Assembly: GCA_905236755.1 (NCBI GenBank)
Contig: CAJOCR010000007.1
Location: 35,882 to 99,881 of the forward strand
Direction of reading: 5' to 3'
From: an uncultured Prevotella sp.
GTDB taxonomy: Bacteria; Bacteroidota; Bacteroidia; Bacteroidales; Bacteroidaceae
Length of the DNA: 64,000 nt
Shown: positions 55,894 to 60,050 of the stretch, one piece after another
Position numbering within the stretch: the stretch's first letter is position 1
Layout: each line of letters begins with the position of its first letter
Position numbers and translations under genes: made by a program
Notes under the pieces: generated by a model
Databases searched by the model: none
Told to the model about the DNA's origin: nothing
Seen by the model: only the letters and a program-made list of their open reading frames with translations

Positions 55894-56523
55894 CTATTCT
55901 TCAAACGGATAGGTTTCGTCGTAAATATCACTTAGAAGTTTGTCTTTATAAAGCCAATGAGGACCAGGGGCTATATGTTTTACGTTATAGCCTTTTAGTC
56001 TTGCAGAAAGTGCACTAATAGATGTTTCTTCACCTTTGTAGCTTATTTTACGCTCAGAAAGAATTGTAACAGTTATAGAAGGGTCGTCTTTCCATTCAAG
56101 AATATCGCCTTTCTGCATCCCCATTTCAAAGAAGTTAAGAGATGGACGAGATTTCTTTGCATTTACAGATGCTGCCTTATCATCATCAGTTAGATCATTT
56201 TCTATTTCATCGCTTACTTCTTCCGTTACATCGGTATGATGGAAAAGTTCAAGAATAGCCTTTGCCTGCTCCACTTGAATACGAAAGAACTCACGATTAG
56301 CATTTATCCGCTGCGGTGAGAAAGCCCTATGCAAGGCTTTCTCAATTTTGGCACAATCACCTTTCTTTACCTTACAAGCAAATTGACACTCAAAAGGAAC
56401 AGGGACTCCAGTTGTATAGAGTTCCTTCATCCTCTTGTCTATATCCTCCTGTGCTGTCATACCTATCTTCACAAGACCTGGCATTACAGGATTGGTTAAA
56501 AGATAAACTATTCCGTATTCCAT
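55894..56523 (-). CDS. GIY-YIG (T5orf172-type) nuclease, possibly with a RAMA-like C-terminal domain
   Basis: 'GIVYLLTNPVMPGLVKIGMTAQ..DKRMKELYTTGVPVPFECQFACKV', 'EKALHRAFSPQRINANREFFRI'; C-term 'KGDILEW..SITVTILSERKISYKGEETSISALSARL..HWLYKDKLLSDIYDETY'. Confidence 0.8.
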   Translation of the reverse strand: MEYGIVYLLTNPVMPGLVKIGMTAQEDIDKRMKELYTTGVPVPFECQFACKVKKGDCAKIEKALHRAFSPQRINANREFFRIQVEQAKAILELFHHTDVTEEVSDEIENDLTDDDKAASVNAKKSRPSLNFFEMGMQKGDILEWKDDPSITVTILSERKISYKGEETSISALSARLKGYNVKHIAPGPHWLYKDKLLSDIYDETYPFEE

Positions 56524-56526
56524 AAA

Positions 56527-57267
56527 TCACTTGCTATTATTTTTAATTTCGTTCATTTCATACAACTTTATTGGACTAAGTTTTTTGCCATCCAAACCGC
56601 CCACACACAATAATGAAATCATTTTGGGATTCTTAACTATACTACTAACAGATTCTAATGTTATATTATCGTCTCCTAAGACATATACTGAAGTTATTGC
56701 ATCTGAAATATCAAGGCTCTCACAGTCCTTGCTGATATAACGATATTCATTTTCTGCCATCCAATGAGGATGCTTAAGAAAAAACAATTTATCAATATTG
56801 TTGACAACAAAATCTTGCTCTGCACCTTCTTTATCCAGATCAACTCCGAAAACAACTGTCTCAGGAAGTTTACTCTCATATTTAACATTATCTTGATAAA
56901 ACATAGCTTCTTTCTTATCAGGTCTAATCTTATGACTATCAAGTTCTATACAAACACCACTTCTTTTATAATCTCTTGCATAGTGTCCCCACATCATTGG
57001 CGAAAGACACCCTTTCATATCATCATAATCTGTACAAAAACTAACTTGTTTATATGCCTCCAACTCCTTAAATACCTTTTTTATAAAATCATTCAGAACT
57101 TCTGCAGAAAACTTCTTTTCTTCATACTCTGCACTCAATCGACTTATTCTCAAAGTCTTCTCCCTTTCGTATACATCATTACATTTCATCCATTCTGAAA
57201 ACATTATTTTTTTTTGTATCCAGATTGAACAAAAATTTGTAAACGTAGTATAATGGTATAGTTTCAT
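56527..57267 (-). CDS. DUF2971 protein
   Basis: 'LYHYTTFTNFCSIWIQKKIMFSEWMKCNDVYE', 'MWGHYARDYKRSGVCIELD', 'FFLKHPHWMAENEYRYI'. Confidence 0.8.
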   Translation of the reverse strand: MKLYHYTTFTNFCSIWIQKKIMFSEWMKCNDVYEREKTLRISRLSAEYEEKKFSAEVLNDFIKKVFKELEAYKQVSFCTDYDDMKGCLSPMMWGHYARDYKRSGVCIELDSHKIRPDKKEAMFYQDNVKYESKLPETVVFGVDLDKEGAEQDFVVNNIDKLFFLKHPHWMAENEYRYISKDCESLDISDAITSVYVLGDDNITLESVSSIVKNPKMISLLCVGGLDGKKLSPIKLYEMNEIKNNSK

Positions 57268-57269
57268 AA

Positions 57270-58454
57270 TTACTTATTCCCTTTCGCTCTATTATGTGTT
57301 TTACAAAGCATTTGGCAGTTGTCAATAGTTGTTGAGCCTCCTTTGCTCCATGCCGTCACGTGGTCAGCATCCATTTCATTAAGTTTCCAAATACGCTTAC
57401 TATTAGCATCGTGTCCGATGGCACAATATGGGCAGTTAGATATGCCTTCTGCTTTTGCCTTTTCTGTCTGCTCTTGATAAACCTTGCGCATAGTTGGTTT
57501 GTCAAACAAACGCACATTTAACAGCTTTGTATCTTGACAATTACCAAGCACATATTCAAAGATACCTCTGCGATTAGTAACAAAGTCATCTTTCATAAGT
57601 TCGCTTACCTTTTCCGACAATTCTGTATGGTCATAAGGATTTTTATGGAAACGCTCATAAAGTTCACCCCAATTCAAACCTTGCATCTCGTCGTAAACAT
57701 CATCAAACTTACTATCCACCCAATCAATAACCGTATTGAAATAAGTCTTTATCTCGTTAATGTTATTATCTCTGCGGTGGGCACTCATATATGCGCTAAC
57801 CTTGTCTTTTGCATCCATATTACGACTTACCCATTCTAAAGCCGTTGCCAAGAACATTTGTCGGTTAGCTGGTCCTTTCACATACGATTCCCATTTTTGA
57901 ATATTTGCATTTTGTGAATTGCTAAACTCAGCCTTACAAAGTGTTACAAACTCACCACTAAAGATTGCATTCAGTTCCTCTTGATGGTTCAAAGGAATAC
58001 CAGCTATATTGATAGTTTTAAACCACTCTTTTATTTCTTCTTCTGCATGTTCACCCTCCCCTTCACAAACATAAACCAATAGTTTTGTCTGCAATATCTT
58101 TTGTTGTTTGCCTTTGTCTAATCCGTCAAAAATCTGTTCCATGCCGTTTATCATAACGGCAAACTTATTTTTTAGAAAACGACCTAAAGAGGTTATTCGC
58201 TGCTGACCATCAAGAACTTCCAAGTGCCCTCCATCCACTTTGTTAAAGTAGATAAGTCCAAGCGGATAACCTTTCAACACAGATTCTATAACAGCCACAT
58301 CTTTCTTACCATCAGCATAGATGTAGTTACGTTGATATTCTGGCTGAATAGTTAATTGTCCAGCCAAACCATAAAGACCTTTGCCTTCAAGCTCATTATA
58401 TTCGAAGCCGTCGCAAATCTGCTCAACGGTATAGATTTTAAGTTCTGTTTTCAT
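57270..58454 (-). CDS. DUF262 + HNH endonuclease (GmrSD-like) protein
   Basis: '[55 protein letters not shown]'; C-terminal HNH '[52 protein letters not shown]'. Confidence 0.92.
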
Positions 58455-58456
58455 GT

Positions 58457-59650
58457 TTATTGCTTTTTACGGATTAATAACCTTTTATACTCTGAATAAA
58501 CCATACGACCTTCTTTATTCTTGTAGTACGTCTTCTTTGTACCTTTACCTAATATTACAGCATTTTCATTGGTTTTTGCTCCAGAAGAACCAGTTTCCAT
58601 ATCTCCTATAGTACGAAATTCTTTATAATCGTTATACTTCTTTGTATCTGGAATTTCTTCATGACAACCAAATTGAGTTAGTCCTAATACTTCAAACTGT
58701 TCTGGGCAATACTTATCTATAAAAGAAATAGGAACACCCATCACGCCATCGTAATCAGAAGGAATTGCATCAGTATATGGAACTTCTATTGCATCATAAT
58801 TATCATAATGCATATATCCTTTTTGTCCTCTGATTTCTTTATGCTTACTATGTTTTAGGTTTTCTGCCATTGTCATTAGTTTTAAAGGTTGATGACGACG
58901 GCCATGATCGATATTTGTGTACCATCTAACTCCCTTTACTCGTATATATTTGTTTCCAAGTTCATCAACACGCCAACCTGCTGCTTCAAGAGGATACGAC
59001 GCAGGCACACAAAATTCTCGGTCCCCACTATGAATACTTACCCCCATCCACATTTTGTTTTCTTTTATTAATGGAAATATCTCCTTATATGTAATAGCAT
59101 TCATATTTCCAATAATAATAAACTGTTTTTCTGAGTCCATTAACCAAGCCACAAACTCACGGAACAGAGAGAAAGGAGGATTGGTAATAATTATATCCGC
59201 TTCATCACGTAGCTTTGTTACTTCTTTACTACGAAAATCGCCATCACCTTTTAAATACTGCCATTCTAAATCGTTTATGTCTATACGATTATCGCCAGTA
59301 ACATCACGTTCTAAAACGAAGATTTTGCCATTAGTACGACTTTTATCTGCATCGTAATAAGGGCTTTCTGTTTCAAAGAGTGTAGGTTGCCAGCTTTTTA
59401 TCTTCTTTGATTCAACGGCATAACTGGTACTAATTAGTTTCTTTAATCCGAAGTTCTCAAAGTTTTGTGCAAAGAACTTTGTAAAATTGCTCCATTCAGG
59501 GTCGTCACAAGGCAGAAGTATTGTCTTATCACGAAACACATCAGGATTATAATCAAGATAAGCGTTTATTTCTTTTTGTATATCAGCATATTGCGTATAG
59601 AATTCATCATTCTTAGCTTCCTTTGCCTTTGCCAAATTAGTATTTGCCAT
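58457..59650 (-). CDS. EcoRI-family adenine-specific DNA methyltransferase
   Basis: '[22 protein letters not shown]', '[20 protein letters not shown]', '[20 protein letters not shown]'. Confidence 0.9.
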
Positions 59651-59655
59651 TATTA

Positions 59656-59689
59656 GATTGATAGTTTTTAGCGCACTCTACTATCAATC
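59656..59689 (-). promoter_or_regulatory. Inverted repeat just upstream of the methyltransferase start
   Basis: gattgatag-N16-ctatcaatc, 6 nt from the ATG. Confidence 0.6.
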
Positions 59690-59704
59690 ACTAACGGTCA
59701 ATTT

Positions 59705-59940
59705 AGCTCATAGCTAAACAAAAAGAAAGGCATGATGCACCTTATTGCGTTCAGCTATGAGGCAGCCTCGGAATAGGAAACCCCACCAAATCAACAAGTA
59801 TGCACCACACCCTATGGCGTGTATGCATTGCTATATATGATTTGGTAGGATATACCTTTCCAAGATACCCTATATCACATATTATTTCTATGCGTTTTAT
59901 TTCCAATAAAGTTTCCGAGGCTTTTGGCTGAACGCAAAAT
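59705..59940 (-). ncRNA. Candidate structured leader/ncRNA upstream of the methyltransferase-DUF262 operon
   Basis: Nested complementary segments: TTGCGTTCAGC/GCTGAACGCAA, AGCCTCGGAA/TTCCGAGGCT, (cc)taccaaatca/tgatttggtgg, ATGCA..ACGCC/GGTGT..TGCAT, TTTATT/AATAAA; G-U wobbles occur only in the minus-strand RNA. Confidence 0.55.
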
Positions 59941-60019
59941 AATAGCGAATGCTATGTTTTACCCACAAAAATTTTAGTGATTGAGGCAACTTTAATTAGC
60001 GCCTTTCAAACCACCATTG

Positions 60020-60050
60020 CAAAGATAATACAAATAAGAATAACTTACAA
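60020..60050 (-). promoter_or_regulatory. Bacteroidota-type promoter for the leader/operon
   Basis: Minus strand TTG-N20-TATCTTTG. Confidence 0.65.

Follow-up and report, generated by a model that had tools for sequence, protein, structure and literature searches.

What does a long structured leader do in front of a restriction-modification operon, and does it belong to that operon alone? This question is raised by the minus strand of a 64,000-nucleotide stretch of DNA from an uncultured Prevotella sp. (the window). The comparative analysis carried out here indicates, with a probability of about 0.7, that the leader belongs to a large Bacteroidales family of riboswitch-like RNAs that act in cis as attenuators.

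The locus and its downstream operon

The elements of the locus are the following:

60050-60020, minus strand: promoter TTG-N20-TATCTTTG, of the Bacteroidota sigma type as read from the sequence
60015-59651, minus strand: whole leader, from the presumed transcription start to the ATG, about 365 non-coding nt
58457..59650, minus strand: EcoRI-type adenine methyltransferase (PF13651), first gene after the leader (Pfam E 2.8e-133)
57270..58454, minus strand: GmrSD_N (DUF262)-HNH nuclease (Pfam; PADLOC REase_II 4.4e-81)

Both the promoter string and the methyltransferase ATG (59650) were located where the first-pass annotation of this DNA had put them. In 35 of the 47 relatives of class A, the leader class of the window, a TAnnTTTG box lies no more than 150 nt upstream of the RNA (4.2 predicted by shuffles). 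The gene order after the leader is methyltransferase, GmrSD_N-HNH nuclease, DUF2971 protein and GIY-YIG-like T5orf172 protein, and the last two proteins (55894-57267, minus strand) match the candidate defence families PDC-S31 and PDC-S57. The promoter and the first ~60 transcribed nt of the leader are 90% identical to the region upstream of another locus of the same genome (L003, G000:C28:56000-63000; positions 3699-3613, minus strand), which has no RNA core and carries a Fic-like fragment (recognised by eye); loci of this kind seem to have exchanged the promoter.

Fold of the leader

The minus-strand leader (363 nt) folds at -118.7 kcal/mol, compared with -86.6 kcal/mol (sd 6.1) for shuffled sequences (z -5.3, with 0 of 100 shuffles folding as well), in agreement with the structured leader proposed earlier. 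The full-length class A model, R2, matches 59955-59655 at 157.9 bits, the window itself being among its training sequences. The parts of the fold are listed below, with z scores from own-versus-swapped tests; all of them lie on the minus strand.

59938..59952, minus: conserved 5' strand GCATTCGCTATTATT, with either the internal strand H1b or the start-codon hairpin region (P0) as partner
59927..59937, minus: P1 5' strand TTGCGTTCAGC
59927-59924/59906-59903, minus: CCAA/TTGG stem closing the hairpin around the P2 5' strand (z -5.8)
59915..59921, minus: P2 5' strand GCCTCGG, in the loop of this small hairpin
59880..59887, minus: H1b (AAATAATA), internal partner of the 5' strand (z -6.7)
59838..59847, minus: P3 5' strand (P3 z -22.9)
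59800..59828, minus: P4 apical hairpin ATGCATACACGCC/GGTGTGGTGCAT (z -9.3)
59784..59793, minus: P3 3' strand
59765..59771, minus: P2 3' strand CCGAGGC, which in most relatives is looped out by hairpin P5
59745..59755, minus: P1 3' strand GCTGAACGCAA
59761-59749 with 59719-59707, minus: alternative helix CTCATAGCTGAAC/GTTTAGCTATGAG, 13 pairs including G-U, -17.9 kcal/mol
59720..59743, minus: terminator-like hairpin AAGG-TGCATCATG-CCTT with T-rich tail, weak in the window
59656..59689, minus: start-codon hairpin GATTGATAGT..ACTATCAATC, directly before the ATG

The two long-range pairings of the first-pass annotation, TTGCGTTCAGC/GCTGAACGCAA (P1, duplex of -17.4 kcal/mol) and AGCCTCGGAA/TTCCGAGGCT (-17.3 kcal/mol), lie at the coordinates given there, and the pairs of P1 and P2 covary across the 47 relatives. 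The stems taccaaatca/tgatttggtg (P3) and ATGCA..TGCAT (P4) also held, each co-varying with its partner. The TTTATT-GGA-AATAAA hairpin is not kept in that form, the conserved local stem being CCAA/TTGG. The GCATT of the 5' strand is invariant in all 47 aligned class A sequences, and for the window P0 is a sequence-only assignment. In a pairing specific to the window, CAAUCACUAA (59976-59967), within the 5' part that seems to have been exchanged, complements UUAGUGAUUG (59693-59684, in the start-codon hairpin) without a mismatch, and this pairing is present in the predicted minimum-energy fold of the leader.

Covariation in class A leaders

The class A alignment comprises 47 sequences, including the window. 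For P1, P2, P4 and the terminator hairpin (T), 87.7% of the cells are paired versus 28-55% in slid alignments, and 148 double changes are found versus 42±5. The cells are paired in 93.9% of cases in P1 and 96.9% in P2, with double changes in 6 of 7 and 7 of 7 pairs, respectively. The own-versus-swapped tests, which are of our own making and take no account of the tree, gave z -14.6 for P1 and also favoured own partners in H1 (-6.7), P5 (-7.4) and PX (-8.5), P3 (-22.9) being both the most divergent and the best co-varying helix; in two unrelated control pairings own partners were no better than swapped ones. Because both P2 strands sit in hairpin loops, P2 is probably a kissing-loop helix.

The terminator hairpin columns are 86.5% paired in the 47 sequences, and a simple terminator criterion is satisfied by 28 of 46 class A leaders, a count with no shuffled control behind it. 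The last 50 nt before the ATG fold at a mean of -11.7 kcal/mol (shuffled, -6.6), and the start-codon region folds better than its own shuffled mean in 43 of the 46 leaders. For the 5' GCATT and the start-codon hairpin loop the test gave z -1.2, both strands being nearly invariant. Co-variation between the P1 strand and the terminator loop was sought in class A and not seen (z -0.5), and this pairing was dropped. The earlier proposal that the minus strand is the transcribed one, made from several mismatches that are G-U in the minus-strand RNA where the plus strand would have C-A, is borne out in P4, the one helix rich in one-sided changes (75 G-U versus 10 A-C), but P1 and T have no clear excess.

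The alternative helix 59761-59749/59719-59707, in which the first-pass annotation saw a possible switch or attenuator, is real and stands at the proposed coordinates; it encloses the terminator-like hairpin and competes with P1 for its strand. However, its 3' arm lies within a ~20-nt insertion that none of the other 46 class A relatives in the alignment has, and as a conserved switch it was ruled out, the insertion being private to the window copy. P1 in the window does not overlap the terminator-like hairpin.

Extent and classes of the leader family

Searches at the DNA level in 393 Bacteroidales genomes and at the protein level in 84,980 species genomes yielded many operons in which this leader lies ~50 nt ahead of the ATG. 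Relatives of the leader stand before EcoRI-type methyltransferases with as little as about 40% protein identity, and in six of the operons, found through the RNA alone, the methyltransferases are only 40-51% identical. Two further leader classes, B and C, precede the same EcoRI-type methyltransferase family. Covariance models were built from leaders only, with no coding sequence in them: R2, and R3, a class C-only model from eight leaders of EcoRI-type genes. The class A 5' core was also made into a sequence model, R1, with which the 393 Bacteroidales genomes were scanned. R3 found 69 places in 47 of these genomes, and the union of R1 and R3 covers about 55 of the 393. Two R1 matches, L160 and L161, were judged false.

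R3 recognises class B leaders (E 3e-8 to 1e-3), and therefore classes B and C belong together. R2 gives only sub-threshold matches on class B and C leaders, yet at the correct position. The assignment of class A to the same putative family rests on the shared 5' motif and on the architecture common to the classes, namely the 5' strand, P1, the loop-loop helix P2, the P3/P4 arm and the start hairpin.

The genome of the window holds two further copies of the RNA, one at C25:29710-29946 (L221) before a lipoprotein-like gene and one at C16:97523-97735 (L222) before a SNF2/ResIII helicase. Cultured carriers include Prevotella ruminicola KHT3 (L082, NZ_FRBD01000015.1) and Prevotella sp. ne3005 (L076, NZ_FOCK01000002.1). 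The check proposed earlier, whether the element always precedes this methyltransferase family, has a negative outcome: the RNA also occurs elsewhere and is missing from roughly 20 of about 60 loci with EcoRI-type methyltransferase operons; in L077 the core has decayed, leaving the 5' segment and the start hairpin beside an intact methyltransferase gene.

A phylum-wide search with the class A model returned only the window's own genome and one weak flavobacterial-type match, and the leader gave no match in phage and plasmid collections; pattern matches in viral contigs were not this leader RNA. This flavobacterial-type relative (L170, 4664-4880; genome G722, of the same taxonomic class as the window and another order) is also matched by R3 with E 4.5e-7, near a tyrosine-recombinase-like gene and before small secreted proteins, which suggests that the leader family is older than Bacteroidales, or more mobile. 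In horse-gut MAGs labelled Fibrobacter (L047, L050, L051 and L071) the methyltransferase leaders look structured and are matched by no model; they have an internal GAATAAGAC strand resembling class C and constitute a possible fourth leader class.

Competing helices in class C

Among 71 distinct class C relatives, in an alignment fitted to the R3 model and thus favouring it, 90.6% of the cells are paired (35-43% when slid) and 856 double changes are found (251±13 when shuffled), all 10 helices of the model showing double changes. With class A (47 sequences), these 71 relatives supply the strong covariation in homologs by which the first-pass annotation had asked to be judged.

In class C the strand that closes P1 doubles as the 5' arm of an intrinsic terminator with a T-run, and both pairings covary. 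A three-strand test on 42 sequences of class C and its relatives gave z -17.3 for P1 and z -9.2 for the terminator on the same strand, against -1.3 to +0.1 for control pairings, the two partners of the shared strand being unrelated to each other (z -0.1). The terminator and the helix that excludes it (P1 -17.3, T -9.2) are thus both conserved, as illustrated by the three strands of L049, CACTCTGA / TCAGAGTGTGGA / TCCATGCTCTTTTT, and this sharing is a signature of transcription attenuators. The mutually exclusive helices of the first-pass annotation were consequently right in kind, being attenuator-like with an exclusivity that covaries in sister classes, although the helix named there is private to the window.

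The class C 5' strand also co-varies with two partners, H1 (z -4.9) and P0, just before the start codon (z -7.0), and a strand before the terminator pairs with one after it (z -14.8). The start-codon hairpin, which precedes or in some classes includes most start codons, gave a weak test in class C (z -2.7). Class B leaders have no clear T-run. In L221 (7947-7711) and L222 (7736-7524) the P2 3' strand can alternatively pair with a strand located after the terminator, e.g. CAAGCACCC/GGGTGCTTG, and because both helices use the P2 3' strand they are mutually exclusive.

Genes located behind the RNA

The leader lies directly upstream of its gene, on the same strand and with a near-constant start-codon position: the distance from core to ATG is 229-319 nt in 46 class A leaders, and for about half of the R3 matches no more than 6 nt separate the ATG from the end of the model. 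Strong R1 matches stand about 230-320 nt ahead of their gene: EcoRI-type operons, a D12 methyltransferase with HNH and N6/N4 methyltransferase, MmeI twice, Tsp45I and its methyltransferase, type III mod-res twice, an N6/N4 methyltransferase, a ResIII-HNH helicase, three sulfatase/EptA-like proteins, an acyltransferase and a GDSL lipase. Behind R3 matches are N6/N4, C5, HsdM, HSDR_N-N6 and MmeI enzymes, a DarT-domain protein, a dynamin, SNF2/ResIII helicases, genes of MBOAT, acyltransferase, PAP2 and fucosyltransferase type, BspA-type leucine-rich proteins, T9SS-secreted proteins and unknowns.

The enrichment in restriction-modification genes is not built in, because the models hold no coding sequence. 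Since the lower-scoring R3 matches precede secreted or unknown proteins and no background was computed, the defence link is only an enrichment. The tie to the methyltransferase-nuclease operon did not survive: the same RNA precedes unrelated restriction-modification systems, other defence genes and surface-modification genes, and is a putative portable module. Proteins without a Pfam match stand directly behind five RNA copies (L184, L195, L197, L203 and L218) and are candidate defence or surface genes.

Proposed mechanism and alternative explanations

As in riboswitches, the leader combines a conserved folded core, some of whose unpaired bases are invariant, with an expression platform set apart from it. 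The core consists of the 5' strand, P1, two hairpins with mutually pairing loops (P2) and the P3/P4 arm. Beyond the structure, conservation, covariation, competing partners, near-fixed spacing and range of downstream genes, which are read directly from the sequences, we infer transcription, termination, control of translation and the existence of a signal, for which a metabolite, an ion, a protein or an RNA would be candidates. In one state P1 would form together with P0, the closing pairing of 5' and 3' ends; in the sister class the terminator would then lose its 5' arm and the start-codon hairpin would open, so that the gene would be expressed (P1/P0 as the ON state). In the other state the 5' strand would have its internal partner (H1), both the terminator and the start-codon hairpin would form, and the gene would be off. 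A more speculative extension, which we consider possible but doubtful, is that the RNA senses an infection or stress signal and switches on a scattered regulon of unrelated defence and surface genes in Bacteroidales as their shared controller, in place of a protein.

About as tentative as this extension is a passive, ligand-free attenuator, in which competing folds would set a low, delayed or heterogeneous expression of costly genes, for instance when a defence island enters a new cell. It is a sub-case of the attenuator family favoured here, differing only in lacking a signal, and its weight is not to be added to that of the main reading. Covarying exclusive helices require no ligand, the alternative helices vary between classes and every gene type found is costly or variable, but the conserved unpaired GCATT and AAAC and the kissing-loop junction would seem to be more like a core for binding than like a simple timer. 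That the transcript ends after ~290 nt and acts in trans, or as a guide, with the nuclease or methyltransferase is improbable. In favour of such an RNA are the elaborate and conserved fold, with unpaired bases that do not vary, and the terminator-like hairpin in which it ends on the 3' side; however, the start-codon hairpin is conserved, and many operons that are otherwise intact have lost the leader, lack it or keep it in decayed form. Since the proteins encoded downstream have no relation to each other (membrane acyltransferases and sulfatases included) and the distance from RNA to start codon is nearly fixed, the separate ~290-nt ncRNA considered in the first-pass annotation is unlikely, and an obligate partnership with a single reverse transcriptase or RNA-guided nuclease, the mark of retron ncRNAs and guide RNAs, was not found among these proteins.

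Two further explanations are given very little weight. Inverted repeats acting as DNA, for inversion or recombination (phase variation) or as a transposon end, would suit restriction-modification and surface genes, which are classical phase-variable types, and the promoter and 5' segment 90% shared with another same-genome locus; against this stand the ratio of 75 G-U to 10 A-C in P4, the independent covariation of many small helices, the loop-loop helix included, and the orientation of the element towards the gene in the loci read. Binding of the methyltransferase protein to its own leader, equally remote, would account for the frequent position of the RNA before methyltransferases, but the same RNA precedes acyltransferase, MBOAT, sulfatase, dynamin and DarT-domain genes.

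Relation to known systems

No Rfam 15 family was found above the gathering threshold for the leader (best, L13_leader, 22.3 bits versus 44) or for five relatives, and the whole window yields only a tRNA; relaxed-threshold matches were chance only. The earlier statement that no known RNA family is recognisable therefore stands. The open-access literature, to which our search was confined, gave no description of the family. The candidate structured RNAs from human microbiomes (PMC8040213) and those of Rfam 15 are comparable objects, some of them from the same phylum; the main text of PMC8040213 uses none of the words methyltransferase, restriction and defense.

If the main reading is true, one leader RNA family joins restriction-modification types, other defence genes and surface enzymes into one regulon, the leader becomes a sequence signature for finding new defence genes among the unknown proteins behind it, and the question of the inducing signal becomes directly testable. 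To our knowledge, how bacteria time the expression of costly defences is a largely open question.

Purine-type riboswitches have kissing hairpin loops and are closed by P1; similarly, the junction that P1 closes in the leader carries two hairpins that pair through their loops and, as in ON-type purine riboswitches, the P1 strand overlaps a terminator in the sister class. Unlike them, the RNA is larger (~250 nt), has an extra P3/P4 arm and a 5' strand pairing, lacks Rfam-level similarity and precedes very different target genes. With intrinsic-terminator attenuators it shares the antiterminator/terminator strand, as the three-strand covariation in class C indicates, and it differs from classical attenuators by an added start-codon hairpin and by having no leader peptide or anticodon-type element that was noticed. 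Restriction-modification systems are controlled by controller (C) proteins and antisense RNAs, and RNA-level control is known mostly as antisense transcripts. The leader is likewise placed to control restriction-modification genes, but as one cis RNA module across unrelated types and surface genes, and no C protein gene was noticed beside it. In kind it would be a cis-regulatory attenuator, and its family, architecture and gene set appear to be new.
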